Origin: Nocardioides sp. BP30
GTDB lineage: Bacteria; Actinomycetota; Actinomycetes; Propionibacteriales; Nocardioidaceae
DNA: 64,000 nt
Reading direction: 5' to 3'
Assembly: GCF_029873215.1 (NCBI RefSeq)
Contig: NZ_CP123620.1
Span: 310,001 to 374,000 of the forward strand
The notes under the pieces are model-generated. The model worked only from the letters and a program-made list of their open reading frames with translations. It had not been told where the DNA came from and made no database searches. The position numbers and the translations under genes were made by a program. Of the stretch, positions 5,627 through 26,965 are shown piece by piece (the stretch's first letter is position 1; each line of letters begins with the position of its first letter).

Positions 5627-7885
5627 TCAGGCGCCGGCCGCCCGCGGCAGCGCACGTGCGGCCGGTCGAGGCTCGCGTCCGTGTCCCGCCGCGAGCGCCG
5701 CCTCGTGGTACAGCTCGGTGGTGCGATCGAGGACCCACGTCCAGTCCTGGCGCGGTGGCACCCGGCGGTTGTGCTCGGCGAGACGCGTGCGCAGACGAGC
5801 ATCTTTGGCGAGGTCGGCGATGGCGACTGCCATCTGGGCGTCGCTGTCGATCAGGAGACCGCCGACGCGGTCGCTGACGAACTCCTCGATGCCACTGCGG
5901 CGACGCGCCACGACCGGCAGACCGGTACAGCGGGCCTCCAGCGCTGCCAGGCCGAAGGACTCCTTCGGTGCGGGGGACACGTACAGCGTGGCCGCGCGCA
6001 GCTCGGCGAGCACCTGCTTGCGCGAGAGCCTGCCGGTGAACCGCACGACGCCGTCGAGCCGGTGCCGGGCGACATAGCGCTCGAGCCGCCGCCGCAGCGG
6101 GCCGTCACCCACGATCACCAGGTCGACGTCCGGGTTGAGCCGTCGGGCAGCGCGGAAGATGCGCAGCAACGGCATCGGGCGCTTGCGCGGCATCAGACGC
6201 ATGACGCTCACCACCGTGGTGTGTGAGCCCGAGACCCTCGCTGCGGGGGCTGCCGGCGCTGCGCTCGACGGGAGGGGAGGCCGCGGCGCTCCGTAGCGCC
6301 AGTCCGACACCTCGATCGCGTTCGGGAGCACCGCCACCGAGCGGCGCAGCGCGGATTCGAAGGATGTCGCGGCGGCGGTGCTCACCGCCGACCAGGCGAC
6401 CGGCCAGCGGCGGAGGCTGGCCCGTGCGGCGAAGCGGAGGACGGTCGCCGCCCCGGTCCACATCGAGTGGACGGTGATGAGGGTGGCGATCTCGGCGCCT
6501 GCGGCGGCGCGAGCAAGCCGCAGACCGTAGGGCGAGAGCACCGACAGGTGCACGTGCACGACATCACACTCGGCCAGCTCGCGGGTGGCCTGCCGCACCG
6601 AGAGGCGCCGTACCCATGCCGGGTCCTCGCTCGCGTCGCTCGCGGGAGGAGTGATCACCCGTGCGTCGAGGCCCCGGGCGCGCTGGTGACGCGCCAGGTC
6701 GTCCACGTGGGTCTCGATCCCGCCCAGCCTCGGGAGGAAGACATCGGTGACGTGGGCGATACGCGTCCCCGGCTGGGCCGGATCGCGAGGGGTTGCGCGA
6801 TGTGCCCCGGGGAGCGTGGCGATGGGCGCAGCTGTCGGTTGCCGACGGCTCGCCCGACGACGGACCAGCACCCACAACGCCAGCGCTCCTCCTCCGACCG
6901 GGATCTCGACGGCGAAGACGAAGGCGCGGTACAGCACCGCACCGGCGGTGACGGCCGTCGGGTCACCGCCGAGGGCGAGCAGCATGCCGACCAGACCGAT
7001 GTCCGCGATGCCGATACCGCCCGGGGTGAGGGGCAGGACGGTGAGCGCGCGTTCGACCGCGAAGCCGGCGAGGATCACGGGCCAGCTGGCGCCGACGCCG
7101 GTCAGATGCAGGCACCAGCCGAGCAGCACCGCCTGCAATGCCAGGTAGCCGCCGATGCCGAGGGACATCCGAAGCCAGCCGCGCGCCACGAGACGAGCGC
7201 AGTCGCTGCGGATCTCGAGAAGGTGCTGGGCGAGTGCGAGATCACGATCGCGCCCGATCACCCGCAGCGGTGCGCGCACGACCCACTCGACGGTTCCCCC
7301 GATCATCGAAGCACCGCGCGGGCTGAGCAGCAGCGGTGCAGCGACAGCGCAGACGCAGACGAAGGCGCCCGCCGAGATGAGGGAGAAGGTGCGGAGCGAC
7401 GGCGAGACGGCGATCCCGGCGTGAGCCAGCGCCACGAGCGCGACGACGGGCAGCAACAGCTTCGCGCCGACGTCCCACAGGTTGGTGAGGAACGTGAACC
7501 CGGTGAAGGTCCGGGCGTCGAGACCCCACGACTTCATCATCCGGCGGTTCAGCTCGACACCGGCGGCGCCTCCCAAGGGCACCACGTTGGACACCGCGCT
7601 GCCCGTGAGGTTGAGCGTGAGCGCACGCCGGTGCGAGAGCCGCGGTGCGGCGGCGGTCAGCACGAACGTGTGCACGAGCAGGCCGGCGAACCACACCGCC
7701 ACCAGGCCCAGGGCGGTGCTCCATCGCAGCTGGGCGAAGGCGGGGAGGACGCTGTGCCAGGTCACGCCGACCAGCTTCGGGAGGCCCGCCGCGACAAGAG
7801 CCGCGGCGATGGCCCACGAAGCCACGAAGCGGAGGCCGCGACCCAGGCCGGCGCGGCCAGGGTGGGGCGCGGATGAGGTGGACAC
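5627..7885 (-). CDS. Flippase-like membrane domain fused to GT4 glycosyltransferase
   Basis: Two-domain protein of 752 aa. Residues about 15-340 form a polytopic domain like the lysylphosphatidylglycerol synthase/UPF0104 flippase-like family, with SNVVPLGGAAGVELNRR and LTPGGIGIADIGLVG as landmarks. Residues about 370-740 are a GT4 transferase with a GGIETHV N-terminal loop and the E-x7-E motif in KESFGLAALEA. Both halves are in one frame with no stop between them. I chose GTG at 7885, which has TACGTT 6 nt before it. The fusion suggests that the sugar is added and the lipid-linked product moved across the membrane by one polypeptide; this is inference. PIG-L and GT39-like genes follow downstream. 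Confidence 0.8.
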   Translation of the reverse strand: MSTSSAPHPGRAGLGRGLRFVASWAIAAALVAAGLPKLVGVTWHSVLPAFAQLRWSTALGLVAVWFAGLLVHTFVLTAAAPRLSHRRALTLNLTGSAVSNVVPLGGAAGVELNRRMMKSWGLDARTFTGFTFLTNLWDVGAKLLLPVVALVALAHAGIAVSPSLRTFSLISAGAFVCVCAVAAPLLLSPRGASMIGGTVEWVVRAPLRVIGRDRDLALAQHLLEIRSDCARLVARGWLRMSLGIGGYLALQAVLLGWCLHLTGVGASWPVILAGFAVERALTVLPLTPGGIGIADIGLVGMLLALGGDPTAVTAGAVLYRAFVFAVEIPVGGGALALWVLVRRRASRRQPTAAPIATLPGAHRATPRDPAQPGTRIAHVTDVFLPRLGGIETHVDDLARHQRARGLDARVITPPASDASEDPAWVRRLSVRQATRELAECDVVHVHLSVLSPYGLRLARAAAGAEIATLITVHSMWTGAATVLRFAARASLRRWPVAWSAVSTAAATSFESALRRSVAVLPNAIEVSDWRYGAPRPPLPSSAAPAAPAARVSGSHTTVVSVMRLMPRKRPMPLLRIFRAARRLNPDVDLVIVGDGPLRRRLERYVARHRLDGVVRFTGRLSRKQVLAELRAATLYVSPAPKESFGLAALEARCTGLPVVARRRSGIEEFVSDRVGGLLIDSDAQMAVAIADLAKDARLRTRLAEHNRRVPPRQDWTWVLDRTTELYHEAALAAGHGREPRPAARALPRAAGA

Positions 7886-7891
7886 CTTGGC

Positions 7892-7897
7892 AACGTA
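7892..7897 (-). promoter_or_regulatory. Leaderless -10 element of the flippase/GT4 gene
   Basis: TACGTT, 6 nt before GTG 7885 on the minus strand, fits the TAnnnT pattern. Confidence 0.45.
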
Positions 7898-7940
7898 GGA
7901 CTCGGTTCGTGCAGGAAACATGACCTACCGCGCCGGGCCG

Positions 7941-9557
7941 CTATCGCGGCGCCAGGATCCGCAGCTGGAGCATCACGGTGAACCGCTGTTCGGGGTCGCC
8001 GAGATCGAGTCCGCTCACCTCGGTGATCCGGCGAAGCCGATACCGCAGCGTGTTCGGATGGATGAAGAGCGCATGGGCGGCCGCGGTGACGTCGCCGAGC
8101 GCGTCGAGCCAGGCCTCCAGGCTCTCCACCAGACCCGCGTCGCTGTGCTCGTCGTACTCCAGCAGCCGCGCCAGCGGTCCCACCGCGCGCTCGCCGCGCG
8201 CCTGTGCCAGATCCCGCAGCTCCAGCAGCAGGGACGGGGTCTGCACGTCCGCCAATCGTGCGACTCGCTGGGTGACATGGCCATCGCGCAGCACCCGCAG
8301 TACGCGGTCGGCGACGGCACGCGACTGCATCAGCCCGGCGATATCCGCCCCCACCGACCCGATGCCGGCCACCACCGGGAGGCTCGCGCCCACCCGGTCA
8401 TGGAACTCCTGCACCACCCGGACCGCCCGATCCTCGGCGTCGCCGCCACCCGGCAGCACCGGGATGAGGCCGTAGGCGATGCCGCCGACGAGGGCCACCG
8501 CCGCCTGCGGCGCGGTCGCGGCCAGATGTACGGCGAACGCGTCGGTGAGCCGGTTCATCTCCGCTGCCCGCTCGGAGTCGCGCTCGTGGTCGGCCGGCAG
8601 GGAGGCGCCCACCACGATGAGCCGGCGACCGGCGATGCCGAGCCGGGCAAGAGCCTCCTGGGCACCGGCACCGCCCTCGAGAGCAGTGCTGACGAGGTCG
8701 GTGCGGAGTCGACGCTGCACGTCGGCACCGGCGCGCACCCGGAGGAGGTGGAGGGCGACGAGATGGGCGGACTCGGTGAGTCCGGCGGCACGCTCCGGCG
8801 TGATCTCGCCCTCCATGACGGCCCAGATCGAGCCGAGCACCTCGTCGCCGGCGCGCACCGCGATGGCGACGCGTTGCTTGGTCACGGCCTGGTGGCCGAG
8901 GTCAGCGGGGTCGACGACGACGGGCCCCTGTTGGCGATAGAGGTCCCGGAAGATGCCCAGATCGGTCAGCAGCCGGGCGTAGCGCTCGGGCACCTGTCGC
9001 CCGATCACCGTCTCGACGCGCGAGGGGTCGCCCTCGTCTTGCCGCCCGGAGAAGGCCAGCACACGGGAGTTGCGGTCCTCGATGGTGATGGGGGCGTCGA
9101 GCAGGGCGGCGACGGCGTTCGCCACCGCGAAGAGGTCGCCGGCCGGCAGCCCGCCGAGCGACTCCTGCTCGATCGTCGCGATGTCGTCCTCCGCCAGCAC
9201 CGATCGCAGCAGGGCGGTCAGCTGCGCCCAGGTCGCCCCTCGCCGTAGGCCGAGCAGCGCCAGCCCCTGCTCCTGGACGGCGGCTCGCACCTCGGGCGAC
9301 ACCGGCCGCGAGCGTACGACGACGCCGACCGCCCCGTGAGCGCCCATGCGGCGTACGAGATCGGCGAGATCCGCTCCGGGGACGCCGACGCCCAGCACCA
9401 ACGCGCGGGCCGGGAAGAGCGGCTCGTCGTCGGGGTCGTCGATGACGATGCCACCGATCTCACCCTCGTGGTCGGGGTCGCCGCAGAGCAGCTCGAGCAG
9501 GGTGTCGCCGAGGTCGCCGAGCACCCGACCGAGACTCGCCCGCGGTCGCTGACTCAC
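7941..9557 (-). CDS. PucR/CdaR-family transcriptional regulator
   Basis: Regulator of 538 aa. The C-terminus carries the PucR helix-turn-helix (HPNTLRYRLRRI, about 50 residues from the end), preceded by a GGDEF-like CdaR middle domain and an N-terminal PucR-type sensor region. Family members control amino acid, purine or sugar-acid catabolism in response to a metabolite. The gene is last in the D-amino acid peptide cluster and 24 bp after the racemase-like gene, so it probably regulates that cluster. I chose GTG at 9557 because TATGCT lies 7 nt before it. The in-frame ATG at 9569 would overlap this hexamer and has no ribosome site. Confidence 0.85.
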   Translation of the reverse strand: MSQRPRASLGRVLGDLGDTLLELLCGDPDHEGEIGGIVIDDPDDEPLFPARALVLGVGVPGADLADLVRRMGAHGAVGVVVRSRPVSPEVRAAVQEQGLALLGLRRGATWAQLTALLRSVLAEDDIATIEQESLGGLPAGDLFAVANAVAALLDAPITIEDRNSRVLAFSGRQDEGDPSRVETVIGRQVPERYARLLTDLGIFRDLYRQQGPVVVDPADLGHQAVTKQRVAIAVRAGDEVLGSIWAVMEGEITPERAAGLTESAHLVALHLLRVRAGADVQRRLRTDLVSTALEGGAGAQEALARLGIAGRRLIVVGASLPADHERDSERAAEMNRLTDAFAVHLAATAPQAAVALVGGIAYGLIPVLPGGGDAEDRAVRVVQEFHDRVGASLPVVAGIGSVGADIAGLMQSRAVADRVLRVLRDGHVTQRVARLADVQTPSLLLELRDLAQARGERAVGPLARLLEYDEHSDAGLVESLEAWLDALGDVTAAAHALFIHPNTLRYRLRRITEVSGLDLGDPEQRFTVMLQLRILAPR

Positions 9558-9564
9558 GGCTGGA

Positions 9565-9570
9565 AGCATA
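9565..9570 (-). promoter_or_regulatory. Leaderless -10 element of the PucR gene
   Basis: TATGCT 7 nt before GTG 9557. It would let the regulator be made independently of the operon upstream. Confidence 0.45.
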
Positions 9571-9581
9571 CGGACGACGGC

Positions 9582-10706
9582 TCAGAGCTCGACGGTCTCC
9601 ACCGAAGTCGTGACCTCGTCGAGCACCTCCGGGATCGGGGTGACGCCGAGGCCCGGACCCGTGGGCACGCGGATCCGGCCGTCCTCGAGCACGAACGGCT
9701 CGGTGATGTCGACCTTGTAGAAGCGCCCGGACGCGGAGATGTCGCCGGGCAGCGTGAAGCCCGGCAGCGAGGCCAGCGCGGCGTTGGCCGCCCGACCGAG
9801 ACCCGACTCGATCATCCCGCCGCACCACACCGCGAGCCCGTGCGCCTCGGCGAGGTCGTGGATCCGCACCGCCTCGAGGTAGCCCCCGACCCGGCCGGGC
9901 TTGATGTTGATGATCTGGCAGGCGCCGAGCCGGATCGCGGCGGCCGCGGTCTGCGCCGAGACGATCGACTCGTCGAGGCAGATCGGCGTCTGCACGACCT
10001 TGGCGAGGTCGGCATGGCCGACGACGTCGTCCTCCTCCATCGGCTGCTCGATGAGCAGCAGCCCGAACTCGTCGAGCCGCGCCAGGTGGCGCGCGTCGCG
10101 CAACGTGTACGCCGTGTTCGCGTCGACCTGCAGCAGCACGTCGTCGCCGTAGGTCTCACGCACCGCGCGGACGGGCTCGACGTCCCAGCCGGGCTCGATC
10201 TTCAGCTTGATCCGCACATAGCCCTCGGCGAGGTAGCCGCCGACCACGTCGAGCAGCTGCGGGATCGACTCGAAGATGCCGACCGAGACACCGCTCGGCA
10301 CGGTCGCGTGTACGCCGCCCAGCTCCCGTGCCAGCGAGCGCCGGCCGGCCCGGAGCTCGGCGTCGAGGACCGCCATCTCCAGCGCGGCCTTCGCCATCCG
10401 GTGACCCTTGAAGTGGTGGAGGCGGTCGGCGACGGCGTACGCCCCGAACTGCTCGAGTGCCGCCTTGCCCGCGCCCTCGGCGAAGACCGGAAGGAAGAAG
10501 CGCTTGAGCACGTCGATCTCGCTGGCGAGGTACTCCGGGGAGTACATCGGGTCGATCAGCGCGACGCACTCGCCCCAGCCCTCCGCCTCGTCGGTGATCG
10601 CCTTGAGCAGCAGGATGTCGCGCTCGTACTGGGTGCCGAAGGAGGTCCGGAAGGGACCGACCAGCGGCATCGCGATCCGGCGCAGCTCGACGGCGCGCAG
10701 CTTCAT
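9582..10706 (-). CDS. N-succinylamino acid racemase-like enolase-superfamily enzyme (OSBS/NSAR family)
   Basis: Enzyme of 374 aa in the muconate-lactonising subgroup of the enolase superfamily. K167/K169 (RIKLKI) and K269 (NIKPGRVGG) are the two acid-base lysines on either side of the substrate. D195 (QVDANTAY), E220 (LIEQPM) and D245 (CLDESI) bind Mg2+. These motifs match the family that contains o-succinylbenzoate synthase and N-succinylamino acid racemase. No menaquinone genes are nearby, whereas a COG3375 acyltransferase and an M20 deacylase are directly upstream and coupled by 4-bp overlaps, so NSAR is the better call. It would interconvert N-succinyl-D- and L-amino acids. A bifunctional or OSBS role cannot be excluded from sequence. 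Confidence 0.85.
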   Translation of the reverse strand: MKLRAVELRRIAMPLVGPFRTSFGTQYERDILLLKAITDEAEGWGECVALIDPMYSPEYLASEIDVLKRFFLPVFAEGAGKAALEQFGAYAVADRLHHFKGHRMAKAALEMAVLDAELRAGRRSLARELGGVHATVPSGVSVGIFESIPQLLDVVGGYLAEGYVRIKLKIEPGWDVEPVRAVRETYGDDVLLQVDANTAYTLRDARHLARLDEFGLLLIEQPMEEDDVVGHADLAKVVQTPICLDESIVSAQTAAAAIRLGACQIINIKPGRVGGYLEAVRIHDLAEAHGLAVWCGGMIESGLGRAANAALASLPGFTLPGDISASGRFYKVDITEPFVLEDGRIRVPTGPGLGVTPIPEVLDEVTTSVETVEL

Positions 10707-11530
10707 GAGTCTTCTCCAGTCGTCTCGGCGGCCGGGTCGGCGGCCGGGTCGGAGCCCGTGTCCGGGGCCGTGGGGGTGGGGGGCTCGAGCAGGTAGCCCG
10801 ACGCTCGGTCGAAGCCGACGATCCGCCAGCCGCGGTCGAGGCGTGGGGCGAGCGCCTGCCGCAGCTGGGTGCGCCATGCCCGGGCCCCTTCGAGATCGGC
10901 GACCCGAAGGCCCTCGATGTCGGCCGGCACCGGCACCCACTCCCCCTCCTGCGTCGGCTCTGAGGACCTGGTGGGCGGGTCGAGCAGGTCCCACCGGATG
11001 AGGATCCGGTCGGAGTCGTCGACGCCGTTGATGGCGTCGTTCATCGCGCCGTAGAAGTTCGTCAGATACTCGGCCGGGCGAGCGCCGAGCTTGACGATGT
11101 TGAAGTAGGCGTTGCGGGCCACGAGCGGGTCGTAGGTCCACTCGATCGCCGTGATGCCCCGGTGCAGCGCCCAGGCCCGCTGGTGCAGCTTGAGCGCGGA
11201 CCCGATCGCGTGGCCGATCAGCTCGGGCAGGACGCCGGCGATGTGGCTGTGCAGCGTGCGGGCTCCGGGTGCCTCGTGGAAGCCGACGCAGCCGCCGACC
11301 ATCCGCTCGCCCCGGTAGGCGCCGACGACATAGCTGCCGGCCTTGCTCATCGCCCGCAACAGGTCGCCGGAGATGAGCGGCTCGTTGCCTCCCCAGATCG
11401 TCACGAAGAGGTCGGCGAGCCCGTGGAGGTCGCCGAGGTCGTGGAGCTCGCGCACCTCGACGCCGGCCTTCGCGACGGCCTTCGCGGCGTCGGTGTCGGC
11501 CTGGGCGAGCTCCGTGGCGTCGATGCTCAC
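10703..11530 (-). CDS. COG3375-type GNAT acyltransferase (putative D-amino acid N-succinyltransferase)
   Basis: GNAT-fold protein, 275 aa, of the COG3375 type. Features are an N-terminal GNAT core with GNEPLISGDLLRAM and VVGAYRGERMVGGCVGF, a central TYDPLVARNAYFNIVKLGA segment, and a proline-rich low-complexity tail. The same type of enzyme in Geobacillus kaustophilus succinylates D-amino acids ahead of an NSAR, and the gene order here (acyltransferase directly before the racemase-like gene, ATGA overlap) matches. The start is GTG at 11530 inside a GTGA overlap with the M20 gene. The acyl donor, probably succinyl-CoA, is inferred. Confidence 0.8.
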   Translation of the reverse strand: MSIDATELAQADTDAAKAVAKAGVEVRELHDLGDLHGLADLFVTIWGGNEPLISGDLLRAMSKAGSYVVGAYRGERMVGGCVGFHEAPGARTLHSHIAGVLPELIGHAIGSALKLHQRAWALHRGITAIEWTYDPLVARNAYFNIVKLGARPAEYLTNFYGAMNDAINGVDDSDRILIRWDLLDPPTRSSEPTQEGEWVPVPADIEGLRVADLEGARAWRTQLRQALAPRLDRGWRIVGFDRASGYLLEPPTPTAPDTGSDPAADPAAETTGEDS

Positions 11531-12663
11531 CGGTCCCCCTCGGACGGGTCGGCGAGGAGGTCCGCGAGCAGCGCGTGGAGCAGCATCGTGCGGTCGGGCA
11601 GCCGGTCGACCAGGACATGCTCGCCGACGGCGTGCGCACCACCGCCGACGGCACCGAGCCCATCGAGGGTCGGCGTGCCGACGCCGGCGGTGAAGTTGCC
11701 GTCAGAGGCGCCGCCGACAGCGGCGGCGGTCAGCGGAGGCAGGCCCAGCGCGTCAGCCAGGCCGGCGGCCCGCTCGAAGAGCGCCTTCGAGGACGACTCC
11801 TCCAGCGGCGGACGGTTGATGCCGCCGAGGATCGCGATCGTGGCGCCGGGCAGCACCGGCGTCAGCGACCGGATGGCGGCGTCGACCCGCTCGAGCTCGG
11901 CCAGGCTCCACGCCCGTACGTCGATGCTGAAGTGCGCGGTGGCGGGCACGGTGTTGGCGGTGGTGCCGGCCGAGGCGACGGTCGGGGTGACGGTGGTGCC
12001 GTCGGCGACCGAGGCCAGAGCCGGCACGGCGCACAGCTGGTGGGCCAGCTCCAGCCCGGCGTTGATGCCCTTCTCCGGCTCGAGGCCAGCGTGCGCGGCG
12101 CGGCCGGTGATGACGACGTCGTACATCGAGGTGCCCTTGCGGGCGGTCTTGAGGGCACCGCCGTCGGCGGAGGCCTCCAGCACGAGCGCGGCGCGGGCAC
12201 CGCGGGCGGTGTCCTCGATCAGCACGCGCGAGCTCGGCGAGCCGATCTCCTCATCACCCGTGACCAGCAGTGTAATGCCGTCGGCCGAAGGCAGCGTGGC
12301 GACGGCCGACCAGGCCATGACCAGCCCGGCCAGCATGTCGAAGCACCCCGGGCCGCGCAGCACCCCGGAGTCGTCGACGCCGTACGGGTGCGTCTCGAGC
12401 GTGCCCAGCGGCCACACCGTGTCGTGGTGACACACCAGCACGACCCGCTCCGCCTGCGGGCGGCTGCCGAGGATCCAGCGCAGGTGGCTGCAGCCGTCGA
12501 CGACGATCCGCTCCGGCTCGACACCGAGGCGGGCGGCGCCGAGGCGAGCGACGAGATCGGCCGAGCGGGCGACGGCCGCCTGGTCGGCTGAGGGTGACTC
12601 GCACTCGACGAGCTGCCGGAGATCGTCCAGCAGGTCGTCGAGCACGACGGTCGGCTTGGTCAC
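11527..12663 (-). CDS. M20-family metallopeptidase (putative N-succinyl-L-amino acid desuccinylase)
   Basis: Two-metal amidohydrolase of 378 aa (ArgE/DapE/CPG2 group). H79-x-D81, D109, catalytic E138 with E139, E163 and a C-terminal His (GGGAHAVGEH) supply the metal site and general base. The dimerisation domain sits at roughly 175-285. In the NSAR pathway the matching enzyme removes succinate from the L-isomer only, which makes the D-to-L conversion irreversible. Here it is the gene directly before the acyltransferase and overlaps it by 4 bp. A dipeptidase or carboxypeptidase role is the main alternative. It begins with GTG 3 bp after the beta-lactamase-like gene. Confidence 0.8.
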   Translation of the reverse strand: MTKPTVVLDDLLDDLRQLVECESPSADQAAVARSADLVARLGAARLGVEPERIVVDGCSHLRWILGSRPQAERVVLVCHHDTVWPLGTLETHPYGVDDSGVLRGPGCFDMLAGLVMAWSAVATLPSADGITLLVTGDEEIGSPSSRVLIEDTARGARAALVLEASADGGALKTARKGTSMYDVVITGRAAHAGLEPEKGINAGLELAHQLCAVPALASVADGTTVTPTVASAGTTANTVPATAHFSIDVRAWSLAELERVDAAIRSLTPVLPGATIAILGGINRPPLEESSSKALFERAAGLADALGLPPLTAAAVGGASDGNFTAGVGTPTLDGLGAVGGGAHAVGEHVLVDRLPDRTMLLHALLADLLADPSEGDR

Positions 12664-12666
12664 GGA

Positions 12667-14058
12667 TCAGCTCGTCTTCTTCGGGGTGGCTCGGGCGCCG
12701 TAGTGGAGGTACCTCTCGCCCGTGGGCAGCATGTAGAAGCGCACCGGGTAGAAGTTGTCGGCCGTGGCGTCGGGCTGCAGCGCGAAGAGCGCCGGGGCGA
12801 CCGGGATCAGCTCGTGCACCTCGGGCTCGGACTTCTCCAGCTCGGCGATCGGACCTGAGAGCGCCGTGCGCAGATAGACCTTGCCGTCATCGAGGTAGAC
12901 GTCCTCGGTCACGGAGGCACGCTCGTAGGTGCCGACGTACGGCGTCGCGTCGACCGTGACCGGCTCGGCCGGCACCTCGAAGGCCGCCGGGAAGTCGACG
13001 TCGGCGAGCGCCTTGAAGATCTCGCCGAAGAGCTCCCGGTACAGCGGGATGGCGCTGCCGACGTTGGCGTTGAGCGAGACGGCGATACCGGCGTCGGGCA
13101 GCAGCCGCAGGAAGGACGTCTGGCCGATGGTGTTGCCGTCGTGGCCGATCGCCCGGCGACCGTTCCAGTCGCAGCGGAAGAAGCCGAGGCCCCACGAGTC
13201 GCCGAGCAGGTCCTTCTCCGGGCACTCCACCTGGTAGGCCGCCATCGCGGCGGCACTGTCCTCCGAGAGCAGGCGGGTCCCGTCGGCGGCGAGACCACCG
13301 GTGAGGTGGAGGCGGGCGAAGGAGAGTACGTCGGTGGCGGTGGCGGTGATGAGACCGGCCGGGCCGACCGAGCGGGGCAGACCCCACACCGGGGCGAGCA
13401 CGGGCTCGTCACCGCCCTTCAGGTGACCCATCGAGTGACCGAAGACCATCGCCTCCTCGGGCAGGGTGGTCGTGTGCGTCAGGCCGAGGGGGGTGAAGAG
13501 CTTCTCCCTCATCGCCGCGTCCCAGGTCTTGCCGGTGGTGACCTCGATAATGCGGCCGAGCAGCGAGAAGCCGGAGTTGCAGTAGGACCAGGTGGCGCCC
13601 AGGGGGTGGTTCTGCTGGGCGGTCTTCAGGTCGGCGACGTACTTCTCCAGACAATCGTCACCGCGGCCGGTGTCGGTGAAGACGTCACCGTCGATGCCGC
13701 TGCTGTGGGTGAGCAGGTGCCAGACGGTGACCTTCTCGGTGACCTGCGGATCACTTAGCTCCAGGCTCGGGACGATCTCCTTGACCGGGGTGTCGAGGGT
13801 GAACCTGCCCTCGTCGATCAGCTGCATGATGACGGTGGCGGTCCAGACCTTCGAGACCGAGCCGATCTGCCACACCGAGTCGGTGGCGGCGGGCTGGCCG
13901 GTCCCGGAGTGGAGCACACCGGTGGCGGCGGTGAAGACCTCGTCCTCGGCGCCGTCCTTGCCGAGCACGAGGATGCCGAGCTGCGCGCCGGGGATGCCGT
14001 GCCTCGCGACCAGCTCAGCGAGGCGCTGCTCCCAATGTGCGGTGTCGATCGTGGTCAC
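12667..14058 (-). CDS. Class C beta-lactamase-like serine hydrolase (S12), cytoplasmic copy 1
   Basis: Serine hydrolase of 463 aa in the class C beta-lactamase/DD-peptidase/D-aminopeptidase superfamily. S67-V-S-K70 is the nucleophile motif, Y159-C-N161 the second motif, and HDG in GHDGNTIGQ takes the place of K(T/S)G. A lipocalin-like C-terminal region follows. There is no signal peptide or membrane anchor, so it should act in the cytoplasm on imported substrate rather than on the wall. It shares the segment TDTGRGDD with the paralogue at 19408-20796. In this operon a D-aminopeptidase or D-specific amidase activity is plausible. It overlaps the ABC ATPase gene by 4 bp. Confidence 0.8.
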   Translation of the reverse strand: MTTIDTAHWEQRLAELVARHGIPGAQLGILVLGKDGAEDEVFTAATGVLHSGTGQPAATDSVWQIGSVSKVWTATVIMQLIDEGRFTLDTPVKEIVPSLELSDPQVTEKVTVWHLLTHSSGIDGDVFTDTGRGDDCLEKYVADLKTAQQNHPLGATWSYCNSGFSLLGRIIEVTTGKTWDAAMREKLFTPLGLTHTTTLPEEAMVFGHSMGHLKGGDEPVLAPVWGLPRSVGPAGLITATATDVLSFARLHLTGGLAADGTRLLSEDSAAAMAAYQVECPEKDLLGDSWGLGFFRCDWNGRRAIGHDGNTIGQTSFLRLLPDAGIAVSLNANVGSAIPLYRELFGEIFKALADVDFPAAFEVPAEPVTVDATPYVGTYERASVTEDVYLDDGKVYLRTALSGPIAELEKSEPEVHELIPVAPALFALQPDATADNFYPVRFYMLPTGERYLHYGARATPKKTS

Positions 14059-14816
14059 GCTGACTCCTGAGGGTGAGGGGTGGACTGGGCGCTGCGGCCG
14101 GGGACCGCGGCGAGCAGCTGACGGGTGTAGTCGTGCTGGGGGTCGCCCAGCACGGCCGCGGTGGGGCCGCGCTCGACGATGCGGCCCTGGTGCATAACAG
14201 CGACCTGGCTTGCGACGTAGCGCACGACCGCGAGGTTGTGGGAGATGAAGAGCATCGAGAGACCGAACTCGCGCTGCATCTCGCGCACGAGGTTGAGGAC
14301 GGCGCCTTGGACGGACACGTCGAGGGCGGAGGTGATCTCGTCGGCGATGATCACCTCGGGCCGACCCGCGAGTGCCCGGCCGAGGGCGACGCGCTGGCGC
14401 TGGCCGCCGGAGAGCTGGCTCGGCAGGCTCTGCGCACGACGGGGGTCGAGGTGCACGAGAGCCAGCAGGCGCTCGATCTCGGCGGTCCTCGCGCGGCGGG
14501 AGAGTCGTTCCGGGATGGCCTCGGCGATGCTCTCGCCGATCGTCATCCGCGGGTCGAGCGAGGAGTAGGGGTCCTGGAAGACCATCTGCACCGGGCGGTG
14601 CCGACCCCGGCGCGGAAGCTCCCGACCGTCGAGCTCGATCCGGCCGCCGCTGACCGGCGCCAGGCCGACCACGGCGCGGGCGATGGTGGACTTACCCGAG
14701 CCGGACTCGCCGACCAGCCCGACGATCTCACCGTCGGGCACGGTGAGGTCGACGCCGTCGACGACCGTGGTGGGCCCGTAGCGCACGGTCAGGTCGTGGA
14801 TGCCGAGGAAGCTCAT
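14055..14816 (-). CDS. Peptide ABC transporter ATP-binding protein (OppF/DppF type)
   Basis: ATPase of 253 aa. Walker A GESGSGKST, signature LSGGQRQRVALGRAL, Walker B VIIADEITSALD and the H-loop SHNLAVV are all intact. It lacks the cysteine-rich C-terminal extension common in Opp/Dpp ATPases, which the fused partner retains. ATG 14816 lies in an ATGA overlap with the permease-ATPase gene; longer readings in this frame only add sequence that overlaps that gene. It should pair with the ATPase half of the upstream fusion to power import. Confidence 0.88.
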   Translation of the reverse strand: MSFLGIHDLTVRYGPTTVVDGVDLTVPDGEIVGLVGESGSGKSTIARAVVGLAPVSGGRIELDGRELPRRGRHRPVQMVFQDPYSSLDPRMTIGESIAEAIPERLSRRARTAEIERLLALVHLDPRRAQSLPSQLSGGQRQRVALGRALAGRPEVIIADEITSALDVSVQGAVLNLVREMQREFGLSMLFISHNLAVVRYVASQVAVMHQGRIVERGPTAAVLGDPQHDYTRQLLAAVPGRSAQSTPHPQESA

Positions 14817-16741
14817 GCCGATACCTCCTCGAGGTCGTCGGGAGCGACCTTCGCTGTCGTCAGCGGCAGCGGCTCGCCGGCGTGCCAGCACGCCACGCGC
14901 CGGCCCGCACCGTCGGGGACGAGCGCGGGATCCTCCTCGCGACACCGGGCGTCGGCGAGCGGGCAGCGGGCCGCGTAGGCACAACCGGTGGGGAGACGGG
15001 CCGGATCGGGCGGCAGGCCGGCGATCGTGGCGAGCGGGGCCTCGAGGTCGGTCTCCATGTCGGGCACCGCGGCCACCAGCGCACGGGTATAGGGGTGCTG
15101 GGCGGCGGTGTGGAGCTCGGCGGCCGGGAGCTCCTCGACGATGCGGCCGGCATACATCACCAGCACGCGGTCGCAGAGGCCCGCGACGACCGAGACGTCG
15201 TGGCTGATGAAGAGCAGCGCCGACTCGTGCTCGGCACGGATCTGGCGTAGCAGGTCGAGCACCTGCGCCTGCACGGTGACGTCGAGCGCCGTGGTCGGCT
15301 CGTCGGCGATGACGAGCCGAGGGGTGCCCATCAGGCCCATGCCGATCATCGCGCGCTGCCGCATGCCGCCGGAGAACTCGAAGGGATACTGCGCCGCGCG
15401 CCGCTCCGGATCCGTGATGCGTACGGCGCGGAGTCGGTCGACCGCCCGTGCCAGTGCCGGCCTGCGGGCCATGCCCTGGTGCTGGCGGGCCACCTCGGCG
15501 AGCTGGGTGCCGATGCGGTGGCCGGGGTTCAGCGAGGTCATCGGGTCCTGGAAGACGACGGCGAGCGAGGTGCCGAGCATGGTGCGGCGCTTCGCCGAGG
15601 TGTCCCCGTCGAGCAGATCCTCGCCCGCGAAGGAGAGCCGGTCGGCCGTGACGACGCCCGGAGCCTCGACCAGCTGCGCTGTCGCGAGAGCCGTGACGGA
15701 CTTGCCGGAGCCGGACTCCCCGACGACGCCGACGGCCTCGCCGCGGCCGATGGAGAAGGAGACACCGCGCACGGCGCGCACCGGCGCGGTCGCGCCGGGG
15801 AAGGTGACGTACAGGTCGCGTACGTCGAGGACGGCCTCGGTCTCGACCTCGGCCGTCCCGTGCGTCGGTGCGGCCGGGGCGACGCCGCGGTCGACGTGGA
15901 CGGGGTCGAGCAGGCCGGTGGCGGCGGAGACGCCGAAGGTGCGTGCGATCGCCTCACCGACGAGGTTGAAGGCGAGCCCGGCGAAGATCACCGCGACGCC
16001 GGGCGCGATGGCGGCGAGCGGGTGGATGTAGATGCCGCTCAGGCCGTCCTGCATGAGCTTGCCCCAGTCGTAGCGGGGGGCCTGCACGCCGAGACCGAGG
16101 AAGGACAGACCGGCGAACGAGAGCAGCACGCCACCGGCGCCGATGGTGGCGTTGACGATGAGCGGCTCGGCGATGTTCGGCAAGACGTGGCGGACCAGGA
16201 TGCGCAGGCGGCTGACCCCCGCCGTACGGGCTGCGGCGATGTAGTCCAGCTCGGAGATGCCGGCGATCAGCGTCTGGCAGAGCCGGGCGAACGAGGGTGC
16301 CCCCGCGAGGCCGACCGCGAGCACGGCGCCCTTCGCGCCGACGCCGAAGACGACGGCGAAGAAGAGCACGAGCAGCAGACCCGGGAAGGCCACCAGGATG
16401 TTGATCAGCGCTGTCACGAGGCGGCCGGCGCGGCGGCCCATCATCAGCGGCGCGGCCCCGAGCACGAAGCCGATCAGTACGCCGATCAGCGTGGCCAGCA
16501 GCGCCAGCTCGACGGAGAGCCGCGTCGCGACCAGCACCCGGAACCCGAGGTCACGGCCGAGGTTGTCGGTGCCGATCCAGTGCGCCGACGACGAGCCGGC
16601 GAGCAGGTTGTCGGTGTCGACGGCGTCGGCCTTGCCGCTCCACAGCACGGGTCCGAGGACCGCCAGCGCGATCACGATCGCGAGCATGGTGACGCCCACG
16701 ATGCCCACAGGCATCCGGACGACGCGCCCCCAGCGCTTCAT
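14813..16741 (-). CDS. Fused peptide ABC permease (DppC-like) and ATPase (DppD-like)
   Basis: One 642-aa chain holding two transporter parts. Residues about 1-275 are the permease: N-terminal helix, about six membrane segments and the EAA-like loop (ELDYIAAARTAGVSRLRIL). Residues about 305-560 are the ATPase: GESGSGKSV, FSGGMRQRAMIGMGL and VIADEPTTALD. An Opp-type cysteine-rich tail follows (GCAYAARCPLADARC). The linker between the halves is about 30 residues of Ala/Pro-rich sequence without a stop. It overlaps both neighbours by 4 bp. Such fusions are known in actinobacterial peptide transporters. They fix permease and ATPase stoichiometry. Confidence 0.88.
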   Translation of the reverse strand: MKRWGRVVRMPVGIVGVTMLAIVIALAVLGPVLWSGKADAVDTDNLLAGSSSAHWIGTDNLGRDLGFRVLVATRLSVELALLATLIGVLIGFVLGAAPLMMGRRAGRLVTALINILVAFPGLLLVLFFAVVFGVGAKGAVLAVGLAGAPSFARLCQTLIAGISELDYIAAARTAGVSRLRILVRHVLPNIAEPLIVNATIGAGGVLLSFAGLSFLGLGVQAPRYDWGKLMQDGLSGIYIHPLAAIAPGVAVIFAGLAFNLVGEAIARTFGVSAATGLLDPVHVDRGVAPAAPTHGTAEVETEAVLDVRDLYVTFPGATAPVRAVRGVSFSIGRGEAVGVVGESGSGKSVTALATAQLVEAPGVVTADRLSFAGEDLLDGDTSAKRRTMLGTSLAVVFQDPMTSLNPGHRIGTQLAEVARQHQGMARRPALARAVDRLRAVRITDPERRAAQYPFEFSGGMRQRAMIGMGLMGTPRLVIADEPTTALDVTVQAQVLDLLRQIRAEHESALLFISHDVSVVAGLCDRVLVMYAGRIVEELPAAELHTAAQHPYTRALVAAVPDMETDLEAPLATIAGLPPDPARLPTGCAYAARCPLADARCREEDPALVPDGAGRRVACWHAGEPLPLTTAKVAPDDLEEVSA

Positions 16742-17739
16742 CGCGCCTCTCCGATCGTCGATCGGGGGTCGAGCAGCGCCAGCGCCACGTCGACCACGGT
16801 GTTGATCAGCAGCACTCCGGCGCCGTACACGAGGACGGTGCCCTGCACCATCGGGAAGTCCTTCGCGGTGATCGACTGCACGATCGTGGAGCCGAGGCCC
16901 GGCCAGGCGAAGACGTTCTCGACCAGGACGGTGCCCGCGACGAGCGAGCCCAGCAGCAGGCCGCCGATCGTGAGCGTGGCCGTGACGGCGTTGGGCAGGG
17001 CGTGGACGAGCGTGATCCGCAGCTGGGTGAGCCGCTTGGCCCGAGCGGTGCGGATGTAGTCGGTCTCGAGCACCGCCAGCATCTCGACCCGCACGATGCG
17101 GGCAAGCACCGCAGCCGGCCCGATCGCGAGCGAGACGACCGGCAGGATGAAGGAGGAGGGGCCGTCGCGGCCGGCGACGGGCAACGCGTGCATGGAGACG
17201 CCGAAGACGTAGACGAGCGCCACGCCCAGGAAGAAGTCGGGGATGGAGCCGAGGACCACGCTGGTGCCCGCGAACAGCAGCTCCGTACGGCGGCCACGGC
17301 CGCGGCGGGTCACCACGGCGACGGCGACGCCGACCGGGATGGCGATCGCGACAGCGACGACGAACGCGAGCACGGCCAGCTCGGCGGTGGCGGGCAACCG
17401 CTGGCCGATCATCTGCCGCACCGGCAGCTGGGTGACGAAGGAGATGCCGAGATCGCCGTGGGCCAGGTGCTGGAGATAGTGCAGGTACTGCTGCCAGAGC
17501 GGGTCGTCGAGGCCCAGCTCGCGGCGCTTGGCGGCGACCAGGTCCGCGGGCGCGGTCAGGCCCAGCGCGGCCCGGACCGGGTCACCCGGCACCGCATGGA
17601 TCATGAAGAACGACGCGGTGACCAGCACCCACAGCGACACCAGCAGCCGCCCGCCCTGTCGGATCGCGAAGCGCGTCCAGCGTCCACCGAGGTGGATGGT
17701 CCTGCGGGCCGGGGCGGCCGCCGGTGTCAGCGTCGTCAT
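16738..17739 (-). CDS. Peptide ABC transporter permease (DppB-like)
   Basis: Membrane permease of 333 aa with six predicted helices. It carries the DppB/OppB-type N-terminus, VLVTASFFMIHAVPGDPVRAAL, and the EAA loop ETDYIRTARAKRL. It pairs with the permease half of the downstream fusion to form the pore. Two bp separate it from the binding-protein gene, and it overlaps the fusion gene by 4 bp, so stoichiometric translation is likely. Confidence 0.88.
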   Translation of the reverse strand: MTTLTPAAAPARRTIHLGGRWTRFAIRQGGRLLVSLWVLVTASFFMIHAVPGDPVRAALGLTAPADLVAAKRRELGLDDPLWQQYLHYLQHLAHGDLGISFVTQLPVRQMIGQRLPATAELAVLAFVVAVAIAIPVGVAVAVVTRRGRGRRTELLFAGTSVVLGSIPDFFLGVALVYVFGVSMHALPVAGRDGPSSFILPVVSLAIGPAAVLARIVRVEMLAVLETDYIRTARAKRLTQLRITLVHALPNAVTATLTIGGLLLGSLVAGTVLVENVFAWPGLGSTIVQSITAKDFPMVQGTVLVYGAGVLLINTVVDVALALLDPRSTIGEAR

Positions 17740-17741
17740 GG

Positions 17742-19346
17742 TCAGCCGAGCATCCGGATGCTGGTCGGGACGATCTCGCCGATGATCTCGAACTGGGCAC
17801 CCTTGGCGTACGTCGGGATGAGGTTGTTGGCGAAGGGCACCACGTCAGCGGCCTTGAAGAGGGCGGACTCGGCCTTCATCCAGGTGGGGCAGCCCTCGGG
17901 GCCGTTGATCGCCATCGCCTTGGCGGTGGTGGCGTCGTACGTCGCGTTGTCGATGCTCGCGAAGTTCTCACCGCCCTTGGCCACCGTCGGCCCGGAGAGG
18001 AAGGGGACGACCTGGTCGGGGGTGTTGACGTTGATGGGCTCCCAGAGGATGTCCCAGTCGCCGGTGCCGAACATGGTGCCCGACACCTGCGTCTGGTTCT
18101 CCGCCTTCGCGGTGACGTCGATGCCGATCTGCTTCCATGCCGAGACCGCGAGCTCGGCGGCCGCGCTGCCACCGGTGCCCAGCGAGGAGTCGTAGATGAA
18201 GGTGAGCTTGAGCGGTTTCCCGCCCTTGGCGTAGACGCCGTCGGAGCCCTTGACCCAGCCGGCCGCCTGGAGCGCGGACTCGGCTGCCGAGGCGTCGAAG
18301 GCCGGCACGTTGCCGGTGACCGAGTCGGTGGTGCAGCCGGTCGGCGGCGTGACGGCGAGCTCGGTGGGGGCTGCGCCCTTGTTGGAGGTGAGCACCTTCT
18401 CGAGCTGGGCGTAGTCGGCCCCCTGCGTCAGCGCCATGCGGACGGCCGGGTCGCTGGTCGGGTGTGACTTCTCCTCGTTGTAGAACTGCTCGCCGATCAG
18501 TGCCTTGGTGTCGACGTGGGACACGTGCTGGGCGGAGAGCCGGGTGGAGTCGGGGCCCATCACCTGGGTGGCGTTCAGCGTGCCGGCAAGGAGCTCGTTG
18601 GCAGCGGTGGTCTCGTTGGAGACGACCTTGACCACGATCGTGGCGGGCAGGCCCGAGGTGGCGCTGGTGGCGCCGTCGGGACCCCATGTGTAGCCCTTGC
18701 GCAGCGTGTACGTGTAGTGGTTGTCCGGGACGGCCTCGCTCAGCACGTAGGGGCCGGTGCCGTCGGTCTTCGCCTTCAGCGTGGAGCGGTCCTTGAGGCC
18801 GCCGTCGCAGACCATCGGCAGGTTGGCGAAGGAGTCGAGCACGAACGGTGCCGGCGCGGCCAGCGTGACGGTGACAGTGGAACCCGACGCGGTGGCCTTG
18901 GCTCCGGCCGGCACGAAGACGCCGAGGAAGGGGCTCTTGTTCTTCGGGTTCTCGACGTAGTTGATGTTGTCGGCGGCGGTCTGCGCGGTGAACGCGGAGC
19001 CGTCCGAGCAGGTGACCCCGGCGTTCAGGTCGAAGGTGACAGTGGTGCCCGAGACCTTCCACGTCTTGGCGAGCTCCGACTGGGTCTGACCGCTGCTGGA
19101 GACCGAGACCAGGTTGTCGTAGGCGAACTGGCTGAGCTGGAAGAGCGCGCTGACCGCTGATGCCTGCGGGTCGAGGGCGCCCGGGTCGGCGGCGATCGCC
19201 ATCGTGAACGTGGCGCCCGACTTGTACGACGCCGACGAGCTGCCGCCGGCGCCGGCCGTACCGGAGCTACCGCAGCCCGCCAGAGTGACGGCGGCTGTCA
19301 CCGTAAGGGCGAGCGCCGCGACGGCACTCGTGCGGATGGGCCTCAT
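17742..19346 (-). CDS. Peptide-type ABC substrate-binding lipoprotein (SBP_bac_5)
   Basis: Extracellular binding protein of 534 aa. The N-terminus MRPIRTSAVAALALTV is a secretion signal ending in the lipobox LAGC, so the mature protein is a lipid-anchored Cys-start protein. The body has the family-5 (DppA/OppA) pattern: LDPQASAVSALFQLSQFAYDNLV, a central GTGPYVLSE and a late DWDILWEPIN segment. ATG 19346 is preceded by GAGGAA at good spacing; a much longer reading in this frame overlaps the upstream hydrolase and is not real. It sets the specificity of the importer, presumably for short peptides. The ligand is not readable from sequence. Confidence 0.9.
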   Translation of the reverse strand: MRPIRTSAVAALALTVTAAVTLAGCGSSGTAGAGGSSSASYKSGATFTMAIAADPGALDPQASAVSALFQLSQFAYDNLVSVSSSGQTQSELAKTWKVSGTTVTFDLNAGVTCSDGSAFTAQTAADNINYVENPKNKSPFLGVFVPAGAKATASGSTVTVTLAAPAPFVLDSFANLPMVCDGGLKDRSTLKAKTDGTGPYVLSEAVPDNHYTYTLRKGYTWGPDGATSATSGLPATIVVKVVSNETTAANELLAGTLNATQVMGPDSTRLSAQHVSHVDTKALIGEQFYNEEKSHPTSDPAVRMALTQGADYAQLEKVLTSNKGAAPTELAVTPPTGCTTDSVTGNVPAFDASAAESALQAAGWVKGSDGVYAKGGKPLKLTFIYDSSLGTGGSAAAELAVSAWKQIGIDVTAKAENQTQVSGTMFGTGDWDILWEPINVNTPDQVVPFLSGPTVAKGGENFASIDNATYDATTAKAMAINGPEGCPTWMKAESALFKAADVVPFANNLIPTYAKGAQFEIIGEIVPTSIRMLG

Positions 19347-19407
19347 GGGTTCCTCTTTCTCGACGCTGCTGAGGTCGGGACGGATGGTGCTGGATGAGGT
19401 GGAGCTG

Positions 19408-20796
19408 CTAGTCGACGCGCGCCACGACGCGGCCGTAGTGCACGTACTTCGCCAGGCCCTCGTCGTTGCGTCCGACGAAGGCGAAGATCGGGTGGAGGCC
19501 GTAGTACTGGTCGAGCGAGATGAGGGAGTCGCCCTCGAGGTGCACGAGCTGCACCTGCAGCGGCTTCTCGCCGATCTCGGCGATGATGTCCTGGGGAACC
19601 CGGTCGAGCCAGACAGTGCCGTCCTCGCGCTGGCTGACGGTGATGTCGTAGATCGTGTCGGCGTAGTGGCCGAGGTACGGCGCCGCGTCGAAGGGCTGCG
19701 GGACCTGCGGCGGCACCTTCGCGCCGGGCAGCGCCACGCCCGCCAGCTCGGCGAGCAGGTGCCCGACGACGTCGCCGTACAGGCCGAGGAAGTCGCCGCC
19801 GTTGGTGAGCAGCGCGATCGCGACCTCCGCGTCCGGCACCACCCGGAAGAAGGCCGCCTGGCCGATGGTGCCGCCGTCGTGGCCGATGACCCGGACGCCG
19901 TCGTACTCGTCCATCTCCCAGCCGAGGCCCCAGTAGCCACCCATGAGCGCGAGCTCGGGCACCTTGACCTGCTTGCTCTGCATCGCGGCGACCGTGGCGG
20001 GCTGGAGCACGACCGAGCCGTCGGGTGCGGTGCCGCCGGCGAGGTGCATGCGGGCGAAGCCGACCAGGTCGGTCGGCGTCATGGCGAGCATCGAGCCGGC
20101 CGGAGCGTTGGAGCGGGCGAGCGCCCAGGTGGGCGCCGCCTCGGGCGCGCCGTCCTCACCGGGTACGTGGCCGACCGCCGCGCGACGCAGGATCGCCTCG
20201 TACGGACTCGGCGAGACGCTGGTCAGGCCGAGCGGGGCCGCGAGCCGCTCGACCAGCACCTCGTCGAACGGCTTGCCGCGCAGGACCTCGATCAGGCGAC
20301 CCAGCACCACGAAGCCGGTGTTGTTGTAGGAGAAGACCTCGCCCGGCTCGACGAGTTGCGGAATGTCCCGGATCGAGGCGAGATACTTCTCCACCGCATC
20401 GTCTCCGCGTCCGGTATCGGTGAAGATGTCGCCCTCGAAGCCGGCGGTGTGGCAGAGCAACTGACGCGTGGTGATCGCGGCCGAGGCCGCCTCGTCGCCG
20501 ATGGTGAACTCCGGCAGGTAGGTGCGCAGCGGCTGGTCGAGGTCGACCAGGCCGTCATCGACCAGCTGCATCACCAGCGCACTGGTCCACAGCTTGGTCA
20601 CCGAGCCGATCTGGAAGACGGTCTCGGTGTCGGCCTCGACCTGGGTCGCGACACTGGTGAGACCGGCTGCGACAGCCGCAATCTCACCGTCCACCAGGAC
20701 GGCGGCCGAGGCGCCCGGGACCCCGCGAGCCGCGACGAGCCGGGGAAGATGCTCCTCCAGCCAGGCCTGGACGTCGTGCACGCGGGTGGTCGTCAT
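19408..20796 (-). CDS. Class C beta-lactamase-like serine hydrolase (S12), copy 2
   Basis: Serine hydrolase of 462 aa, paralogous along its length to the gene at 12667-14058. S65-V-T-K68 and Y157-N-N159 form the first two catalytic motifs, and VIGHDGGTIGQ the third. TDTGRGDD is shared with copy 1. No signal peptide, so it is probably cytoplasmic. The two copies flank the transporter, and their difference at the second motif (YNN against YCN) hints at different substrate preferences. A leaderless promoter hexamer lies 8 nt before the ATG. Candidate activities are D-aminopeptidase, D-esterase or DD-peptidase-like hydrolysis. Confidence 0.8.
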   Translation of the reverse strand: MTTTRVHDVQAWLEEHLPRLVAARGVPGASAAVLVDGEIAAVAAGLTSVATQVEADTETVFQIGSVTKLWTSALVMQLVDDGLVDLDQPLRTYLPEFTIGDEAASAAITTRQLLCHTAGFEGDIFTDTGRGDDAVEKYLASIRDIPQLVEPGEVFSYNNTGFVVLGRLIEVLRGKPFDEVLVERLAAPLGLTSVSPSPYEAILRRAAVGHVPGEDGAPEAAPTWALARSNAPAGSMLAMTPTDLVGFARMHLAGGTAPDGSVVLQPATVAAMQSKQVKVPELALMGGYWGLGWEMDEYDGVRVIGHDGGTIGQAAFFRVVPDAEVAIALLTNGGDFLGLYGDVVGHLLAELAGVALPGAKVPPQVPQPFDAAPYLGHYADTIYDITVSQREDGTVWLDRVPQDIIAEIGEKPLQVQLVHLEGDSLISLDQYYGLHPIFAFVGRNDEGLAKYVHYGRVVARVD

Positions 20797-20804
20797 GGTG
20801 ACCG

Positions 20805-20810
20805 ACCCTA
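20805..20810 (-). promoter_or_regulatory. Leaderless -10 element of hydrolase copy 2
   Basis: TAGGGT 8 nt before ATG 20796. The same hexamer lies before the M19 gene. Confidence 0.45.
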
Positions 20811-20883
20811 GGGAGATGCCATCCGAAGAGCATTGTCAGTTGTTACAAGACAGGCGGCCAGGCGCGGTGCGATCCGACAAGCC

Positions 20884-21846
20884 CTAGTCGGCCCACACTT
20901 CGCGAGCGACCCTCCGGAAGTTGCCGCCCAGGATGCCGTCGACCGCCTCCGGCGGGTAGCCACGCCGTACCAACTCGGCCTCGACGGTGAGCGTCACCTC
21001 CGGCTCGACGAAGCCGATCGGACCCCACCGGGTGTACTCCTCGGGGAAGAGCTCGGGATTGTCGGCGATGTCGCTCACCAGATCCTCGGCGTCGAAGGAG
21101 TAGTCGCTACCCAGGCCGATGTGCTGCCAGCCGACCAGGTCGACGCCGTACTCGATCATCGCGACGTAGGCCTCGAGGGTGGCGGTGTTCTCCCCGAGGA
21201 AGATGCCGATGCCGGGTACGCCGATCACGCCGCCGGTCGCCGCGCACTCGCGGGCCTGCTCGTCGGTGATGTTGCGGACGTGGTCCCACCGCGACTTGAA
21301 GCCGGAGTGGGAGTAGATCATCGGCTTCTGCGAGGCCTCGGAGAGGCCGAGGCCGGTGCGCACACTGGTGTGCGAGCCGTCGACGAGCATCCCCACGGCG
21401 TTGAGCTCGTGGACCAGATCGCGGCCCCACGGGGTCAGACCGGTGTCGTCCTTCTCCAGGCAGCCGGCCCCGGCCTTGTTCGCCAGGTTGTAGCTCACGC
21501 CGAGCGAGCGGACACCGAGGTCGTAGAACGCCTGGACCATCCCGAGGTCACCCTCGAGCGGGTTGGAGCACTCCAGGTCGAAGGCGACCACGATCCGGCC
21601 CGCCTCGTGGGCGGCATCGATCTGCGCCACCGAGCCGGCCAACTCCAGCCGCGGATGCTCGGCCACGGCCGCCGCGAACTGCCGCGCGAAGCCCATCGAC
21701 TCCGCCCGCGAGTGGGGCGCGTAGCCGACATTGAGGCAGACATAGGCACCACCCGGCCGGTCGAAGCGGAGGACGTCGGCAACGTCGGCGACGGGGGCCA
21801 GAGGCAGGCAGGCGTGCTGCTCCCAGAAGAGTCGAGTGGTCGTCAT
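20884..21846 (-). CDS. M19 membrane-dipeptidase-family metallopeptidase
   Basis: Renal-dipeptidase family enzyme, 320 aa. Metal-site residues visible are H11, E92, H159 (VDGSHTS) and H180 (YSHSGF), with HIGLGSDYSFD late in the chain. The usual first motif H-x-D reads H11-A-C13 here, inside EQHACLPL; I believe this H-x-C form is a recognised M19 subgroup, so it does not by itself mean loss of activity. Bacterial M19 enzymes cleave dipeptides, often L-D ones, because they tolerate a D-residue at the C-terminal position. No signal peptide is present. It is the first gene of the cluster and has TAGGGT 6 nt before its ATG. Confidence 0.85.
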   Translation of the reverse strand: MTTTRLFWEQHACLPLAPVADVADVLRFDRPGGAYVCLNVGYAPHSRAESMGFARQFAAAVAEHPRLELAGSVAQIDAAHEAGRIVVAFDLECSNPLEGDLGMVQAFYDLGVRSLGVSYNLANKAGAGCLEKDDTGLTPWGRDLVHELNAVGMLVDGSHTSVRTGLGLSEASQKPMIYSHSGFKSRWDHVRNITDEQARECAATGGVIGVPGIGIFLGENTATLEAYVAMIEYGVDLVGWQHIGLGSDYSFDAEDLVSDIADNPELFPEEYTRWGPIGFVEPEVTLTVEAELVRRGYPPEAVDGILGGNFRRVAREVWAD

Positions 21847-21858: not shown

Positions 21859-22095
21859 GGGGACCGAGCCCGTCGGCGGATCGCACCGCCGGACGAAGAG
21901 GTGGCGCTCGCTTCGTCGGTTCCTACGACGGCCTTGCCGGCAGCTGCCCTAGCGTCCCTGATCGCCGCATCGCCTAGGAGCCGAGGCGCCACCGACGGCG
22001 TGCCGGTGCGCGTCGCGGCAGGTTCGCCCGACCCGACTCGTGGGCACCGCCGAGAGCTAGGCTGGCATGACGGCGGAGAGACGGCGGGGCCGGTG

Positions 22096-25630: not shown

Positions 25631-25656
25631 GGTGTGCTCCTTGCAGGTGAGGTGGG

Positions 25657-25755: not shown

Positions 25756-25762
25756 GGGCTCC

Positions 25763-26868: not shown

Positions 26869-26905
26869 GTCTCGTCCCGTTCGTCGTGTGGTGACGTCCG
26901 AATAG

Positions 26906-26958: not shown

Positions 26959-26965
26959 CCGCCGC

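Follow-up and report, generated by a model that had tools for sequence, protein, structure and literature searches.

A modular operon with a probable role in the salvage of D-amino-acid-containing peptides in Nocardioides sp. BP30 and other Actinomycetes

Among the closest described counterparts of the operon analyzed here, a cluster of eleven genes in a 64,000 nt stretch of Nocardioides sp. BP30 (NZ_CP123620.1, 310,001..374,000; this whole stretch is called the window, and positions are counted from its start), is the route from D- to L-amino acids in Geobacillus kaustophilus, the original paper on which is reportedly that of Sakai et al. in 2006. The route comprises an N-succinyltransferase, an N-succinylamino acid racemase (NSAR) and an L-succinylase. 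The NSAR/L-succinylase pair is described as making L-amino acids, and in two accounts the NSAR pathway figures chiefly as a biocatalyst (PMC7431475, PMC8142540). Adjacent genes here are predicted to encode these three activities, and the NSAR subfamily is shared. However, the Nocardioides operon joins to them an importer, a regulator and two or three peptidases; carboxypeptidase G2 is the closest solved relative of its M20 protein, and the acyltransferase and the M20 protein are likened to the Geobacillus enzymes by predicted activity. The nearest solved enzyme is the N-acylamino acid racemase/NSAR of Amycolatopsis (1sja, 4a6g), which has its active-site residues in common with the racemase of the operon; work on it has concerned the isolated enzyme and its use as a biocatalyst, and to our knowledge no operon role has been assigned to it.

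The DgcN-DgcA pathway also uses N-acyl chemistry, and we know of no peptide importer that belongs to it. Unlike the operon here, it is described as converting a single amino acid, D-Glu, to L-Glu (PMC10845958). An importer, an enolase-superfamily epimerase and peptidases are combined, as in Nocardioides, in the dpp-ykf operon of Bacillus subtilis. The dpp genes are part of that operon; dipeptides rather than N-acyl amino acids are epimerized there, and its murein-specific endopeptidase is absent from the operon here. YkfB is reported as the epimerase and YkfC as the endopeptidase (PMC5808125). In Pyrococcus abyssi, the S12 D-peptidase Pab87 (CubicO) has a D-aminoacylase and an ABC transporter for dipeptides as its neighbors, and processing of environmental D-peptides has been proposed for this archaeal neighborhood; the relevant parts of that report mention no NSAR or acyltransferase (PMC2651629). 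The enzymatic trio and the import of D-peptides are each already known; what is new is the way in which these known pathways are put together. This combination is undescribed in the titles and abstracts of the open-access literature searched, a weak absence, as most subscription papers lie outside that scope.

Eleven open genes, all on the minus strand, lie at 7941-21846, and their products were compared with Pfam and NCBIfam. We consider it likely that they form a catabolic operon for D-amino-acid-containing peptides. From the first gene to the last, they are:

20884..21846, minus strand: M19 (membrane/renal dipeptidase family) protein, 320 amino acids (PF01244, 229.3 bits, cut-off 26)
19408..20796, minus strand: S12a, an S12 (beta-lactamase-like) hydrolase, 462 amino acids (Pfam PF00144; SVTK, YNN and HDG)
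17742..19346, minus strand: family-5 solute-binding lipoprotein with an LAGC lipobox (PF00496, 144 bits; hydrophobic N-terminus)
16738..17739, minus strand: DppB-type permease (PF00528, PF19300)
14813..16741, minus strand: DppC-DppD fusion, permease and ATPase in one chain of 642 amino acids (PF00528 at residues 87-267, PF00005 at 325-484, PF08352 at 535-600)
14055..14816, minus strand: DppF-type ATP-binding protein (PF00005; Walker A and signature motifs)
12667..14058, minus strand: S12b, the second S12 hydrolase, 463 amino acids (PF00144; SVSK, YCN and HDG)
11527..12663, minus strand: M20 metallohydrolase, putative N-acyl-L-amino acid deacylase (PF01546, PF07687; HHD, EE and GAHA motifs)
10703..11530, minus strand: GNAT-fold acyltransferase, putative D-amino acid N-acyltransferase (earlier label COG3375)
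9582..10706, minus strand: N-succinylamino acid racemase (NSAR/OSBS subfamily; OSBS, o-succinylbenzoate synthase), 374 amino acids (1sja, E 3.2e-168)
7941..9569, minus strand: PucR-type regulator with HTH_30 (PF13556, 81.5 bits)

The start codon of the binding protein was corrected to 19346. A sequence-only reading of this DNA had named the same eleven minus-strand genes and their families, and all stand except for the COG3375 label. It had also seen 4 bp overlaps between most of the genes; the junctions from M19 to PucR measure 87, 61, 2, −4, −4, −4, 3, −4, −4 and 12 nt, and such an overlap is present at five of the ten. The dedicated importer it described is there, with genes for the family-5 lipoprotein, DppB, DppC-DppD and DppF, DppC and DppD being one protein.

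In the mechanism that we propose, the lipoprotein and the Dpp-type ABC transporter would import peptides, and the cytosolic S12 enzymes, assisted by the M19 protein here and by S9-S12 fusions in relatives, would cut them, including at bonds beside D-residues. The D-amino acids released would then be N-acylated by the GNAT enzyme, with succinyl-CoA as the most likely donor, and the NSAR would interconvert the N-acyl-D and N-acyl-L forms. If the M20 enzyme deacylates the L-form only, the net flow would be one-way to L-amino acids; this direction is proposed because NSAR is known to be paired with an L-specific succinylase. The PucR-type protein may control the operon via a palindrome near its first genes.

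The operon is real and modular, and D-peptide salvage is its probable role. In a first survey, 58 relatives were searched with the acyltransferase as query. The whole gene order was found in Dactylosporangium siamense (locus L021), several other loci have most of it, and the arrangement recurs across other genera and families. A second survey used the racemase alone, which avoids selection by the acyltransferase, and led from 296 genomes of the class to 103 places in 86 genomes. Loci of up to 20 kb, or as far as the contig extended, were fetched around the 85 places outside our own genome with at least 54% identity, and 9 of the 17 weaker places were treated likewise. The scoring, at thresholds of 38% identity and 40% query coverage, covered eight core parts (DppB, DppCD, DppF, S12b, M20, GNAT, NSAR and PucR). 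At least seven of the eight were present in 24 of the 85 NSAR-sampled loci, and none of 20 control windows, taken from 20 of the same genomes, held any core part at the same threshold. Together with the recurring gene order, this indicates that the arrangement is more than chance, and the co-occurrence in related genomes, on which the sequence-only reading had staked its interpretation, is borne out. The predicted trio of acyltransferase, NSAR and M20 is likewise co-located, with the GNAT gene directly upstream of the NSAR gene on the same strand in 64 of the 85 loci and an M20 match above 150 bits in 49. In the nine weaker loci DppB, S12b and PucR were each found in none, and thus none of them can hold the operon set.

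The association was also visible from the other side. Among relatives with at least 50% identity, at least 27 of 32 S12b and at least 25 of 32 PucR proteins have an NSAR no more than 15 kb away, and both counts are lower bounds, since 50 of the 102 NSAR places were entered. One S12b relative without such a neighbor, L171, belongs to an operon whose contig ends right after the GNAT gene. L170 has an S12 alone and no NSAR in the stretch fetched. L167, L168 and L169 are sister clusters in which relatives of PucR and S12b occur with those of the transporter or binding protein and with unassigned open reading frames, and no NSAR or acyltransferase match was found within the stretches fetched. On a tree of the NSAR proteins, the operon label required 7 changes, compared with a mean of 33.8 for shuffled labels (0 of 500 shuffles as low); the label was given to 39 loci and the window by identity alone, and the tree was built by a quick method that left open 39 of the 117 inner branches and came with a long-branch warning. 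The label is thus clustered on the tree, with several gains or losses.

The nearest solved structures to the racemase are those of the Amycolatopsis NSAR (residues 1-368 aligned to 1sja), while the L-Ala-D/L-Glu epimerase 1jpm is remote (E 4e-34) and the NCBIfam model racemase_DgcA is matched with 88.5 of the 400 bits required. The racemase carries K167, K169, D195, E220, D245, K269 and R272, which we take to be the KxK motif and the second catalytic lysine, the three acidic metal ligands and, in Amycolatopsis numbering, the equivalent of R266. In a 120-row alignment, all seven residues are invariant in the 40 operon-type rows, and the other 80 rows show three departures across the seven positions. 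The assignment as an NSAR with its metal and acid-base residues is supported, and the enzyme is predicted to racemize N-succinyl amino acids.

For the acyltransferase, no Pfam or NCBIfam model matched at 1e-3; residues 22-186 adopt a confident GNAT fold, the C-terminal part being barely covered by the test. The M20 protein clearly belongs to its family, and every NCBIfam match shown falls below the cut-off.

Both S12 proteins contain the SxxK, YxN and HxG motifs. Their solved relatives in the PDB include 7spn, 6ksu and Pab87 (2qmi) for both, the alkaline D-peptidase 4y7p for S12a and the penicillin-binding-protein-type (PBP) cyclase Ulm16 (8fek) for S12b, as well as D-amino acid amidase and beta-lactamases. 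For Pab87, degradation of D-amino-acid peptides has been reported (PMC2651629). The M19 protein is nearest to 2i5g, followed by GliJ and renal dipeptidases. A simple hydropathy analysis gave a signal-like N-terminus for the binding protein and none for the S12, M19 or M20 proteins; cutting would therefore follow import. Many relatives carry a gene for an S9 peptidase between those for DppF and S12b. An S9 match above 200 bits was seen in 39 of 121 loci (L021-L141), and in 34 of the 39 the S9 and an S12 domain, matched by either S12 query (S12a and S12b not told apart), share one stop-free frame, for example at 5272-8562 of L031. S9 and the M20 deacylase form an in-frame fusion at 3163-6432 of L040, and in L042, L073, L094 and L095 S9 is fused to neither. 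In the window, S12b stands alone. The S9-S12 and S9-M20 fusions argue for enzymes acting on one path.

The regulator has a clear C-terminal HTH_30 domain; its N-terminal PucR domain stays below the Pfam cut-off (19.9 of 33.5 bits), and the NCBIfam AdeR model gives a sub-cut-off match. A palindrome, TYGT-N8-ACRA, was first spotted by eye upstream of S12a in relatives. It occurs 319 times in 2,233,071 bases, about once per 7000, and of the 29 operons eligible among the 39, 21 have it within 150 nt before the first transporter or S12 gene, the gene starts of relatives being tblastn estimates. The site is present in 7 of the 13 operons that begin with S12a, 12 of which were viewed while the pattern was formed, and in 14 of the 16 that begin with the binding protein, which were unused for the pattern and among which many close relatives share the site. 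The controls gave 15 of 230 before internal genes and, for loci lacking the operon set, 9 of 138. Six sites lie in the 64 kb window, where the overall rate predicts about nine, and two of the six precede operon genes:

20833..20848, no strand assigned: candidate operator TTGT-N8-ACAA, before S12a, inside the 87 nt M19/S12a gap
21913..21928, no strand assigned: candidate operator TCGT-N8-ACGA, upstream of M19

The palindrome may be an operator bound by the PucR-type protein. Another repeat, CCCTAGGGTC, seemed to be shared by the regions before M19 and before S12a but was dropped, as its 15-base pattern with two mismatches had 1 match in the window compared with 0.81 expected.

Several observations weigh against a dedicated D-peptide operon. 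The distribution is patchy, the acyltransferase having been found in 28 of the 58 relatives of the first survey, and the full set is missing from 61 of the 85 NSAR loci, in some of them through contig ends; given also the sister clusters with PucR, transporter or S12 parts but without NSAR, the importer and the racemase are separable. The operon that looked complete to the sequence-only reading is complete in the full-set loci. The exact palindrome is absent from 8 of the 29 eligible operons (L021, L029, L053, L063, L085, L087, L089 and L100). The solved relatives of the binding protein include nickel-binding proteins besides peptide binders. In place of HxD, the metal motif of the M19 family, the M19 protein has H-A-C in the window and H-T-C in L049; without the aspartate its activity is uncertain. 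At the thresholds given above, a single one of the 85 NSAR-sampled loci contained an M19 match, and the protein is also present in L021. The claim of three D-tolerant hydrolases is weakened accordingly for M19, and taken as a whole the earlier interpretation is partly supported.

Two further points of this kind lead to the strongest alternative, a general catabolism of peptides or N-acyl-amino acids without D-specificity, in which the S12 proteins would be esterases or amidases, the M20 protein a peptidase like carboxypeptidase G2, and the NSAR a rescue enzyme for occasional N-acyl-D-amino acids. S12 enzymes can indeed be esterases, and carboxylesterases are among the PDB relatives of both S12a and S12b; the M20 protein has carboxypeptidase G2 as its nearest solved relative and is closer to it than to the desuccinylases DapE and ArgE; and NSAR enzymes are described as accepting many N-acyl groups (PMC7431475). 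However, D-peptidases (Pab87, alkaline D-peptidase) are also among the S12 relatives, and the tight GNAT-NSAR linkage is easiest to understand if the cell carries out the acylation of amino acids itself. We regard this alternative as unlikely.

Recycling of murein stem peptides, the cell's own or those of its neighbors, as in the B. subtilis dpp-ykf operon, would be compatible with the Dpp-type importer, and the murein peptide-binding protein 3o9p is among the relatives of the binding protein (E 9.8e-16). However, the eleven proteins have no Pfam match (1e-3) to NlpC/P60, LD-carboxypeptidase or DppA-type D-aminopeptidase, a search that did not extend to the rest of the genome, and the racemase is of the NSAR type rather than an L-Ala-D/L-Glu epimerase. 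An operon of the dpp-ykf type is disfavored on both counts, and we judge murein recycling improbable. Still less probable, in our view, is detoxification of, or self-defense against, D-amino acids or nonribosomal peptides instead of feeding. It could be suggested by the S12 relatives 6ksu, which we take to be SurE, and Ulm16, both of which act on nonribosomal peptides with D-residues, but a dedicated importer would worsen poisoning, and the eleven genes include neither an exporter nor a biosynthetic gene. Finally, that menaquinone synthesis in this genome relies on the racemase as its OSBS is scarcely credible, even though the enzyme matches the equivalog model menC_lowGC_arch above the cut-off (295.1 vs 200.65 bits), because a separate MenC match (C1:811817-812773, 433 bits, cut-off 288) ends 20 bases before a MenD match (C1:812793-814049, 339.9 bits, cut-off 244.2), so that menaquinone could be made without the operon racemase, and no menaquinone enzyme is among the other ten operon proteins.

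If D-peptide salvage is indeed the role of the operon, the NSAR pathway would gain a physiological setting, namely, feeding on D-amino-acid peptides. The S9-S12 proteins represent a fused peptidase architecture, and the palindrome is a testable candidate operator. A more specific version, which we put forward tentatively and hold to be possible rather than likely, is a dedicated regulon for heterochiral peptides in a number of actinobacteria. The S9-S12 protein would be a two-headed peptidase, with one site for L-bonds and one for D-bonds, that fully dismantles mixed L/D peptides such as nonribosomal ones; GNAT, NSAR and M20 would turn the freed D-amino acids into L-amino acids; and a PucR-type sensor would bind TYGT-N8-ACRA. 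Should the action of the S12 relatives on nonribosomal peptides carry over, the operon would bear on their natural breakdown.

Two other features of the window lie near the operon. A single protein at 5627-7921 combines an LPG-synthase-type membrane region with a glycosyltransferase. At 24602-27676, a DHDPS-like protein and an ornithine cyclodeaminase/mu-crystallin protein are accompanied by a divergent GntR/FCD regulator, possibly forming a second amino acid cluster.

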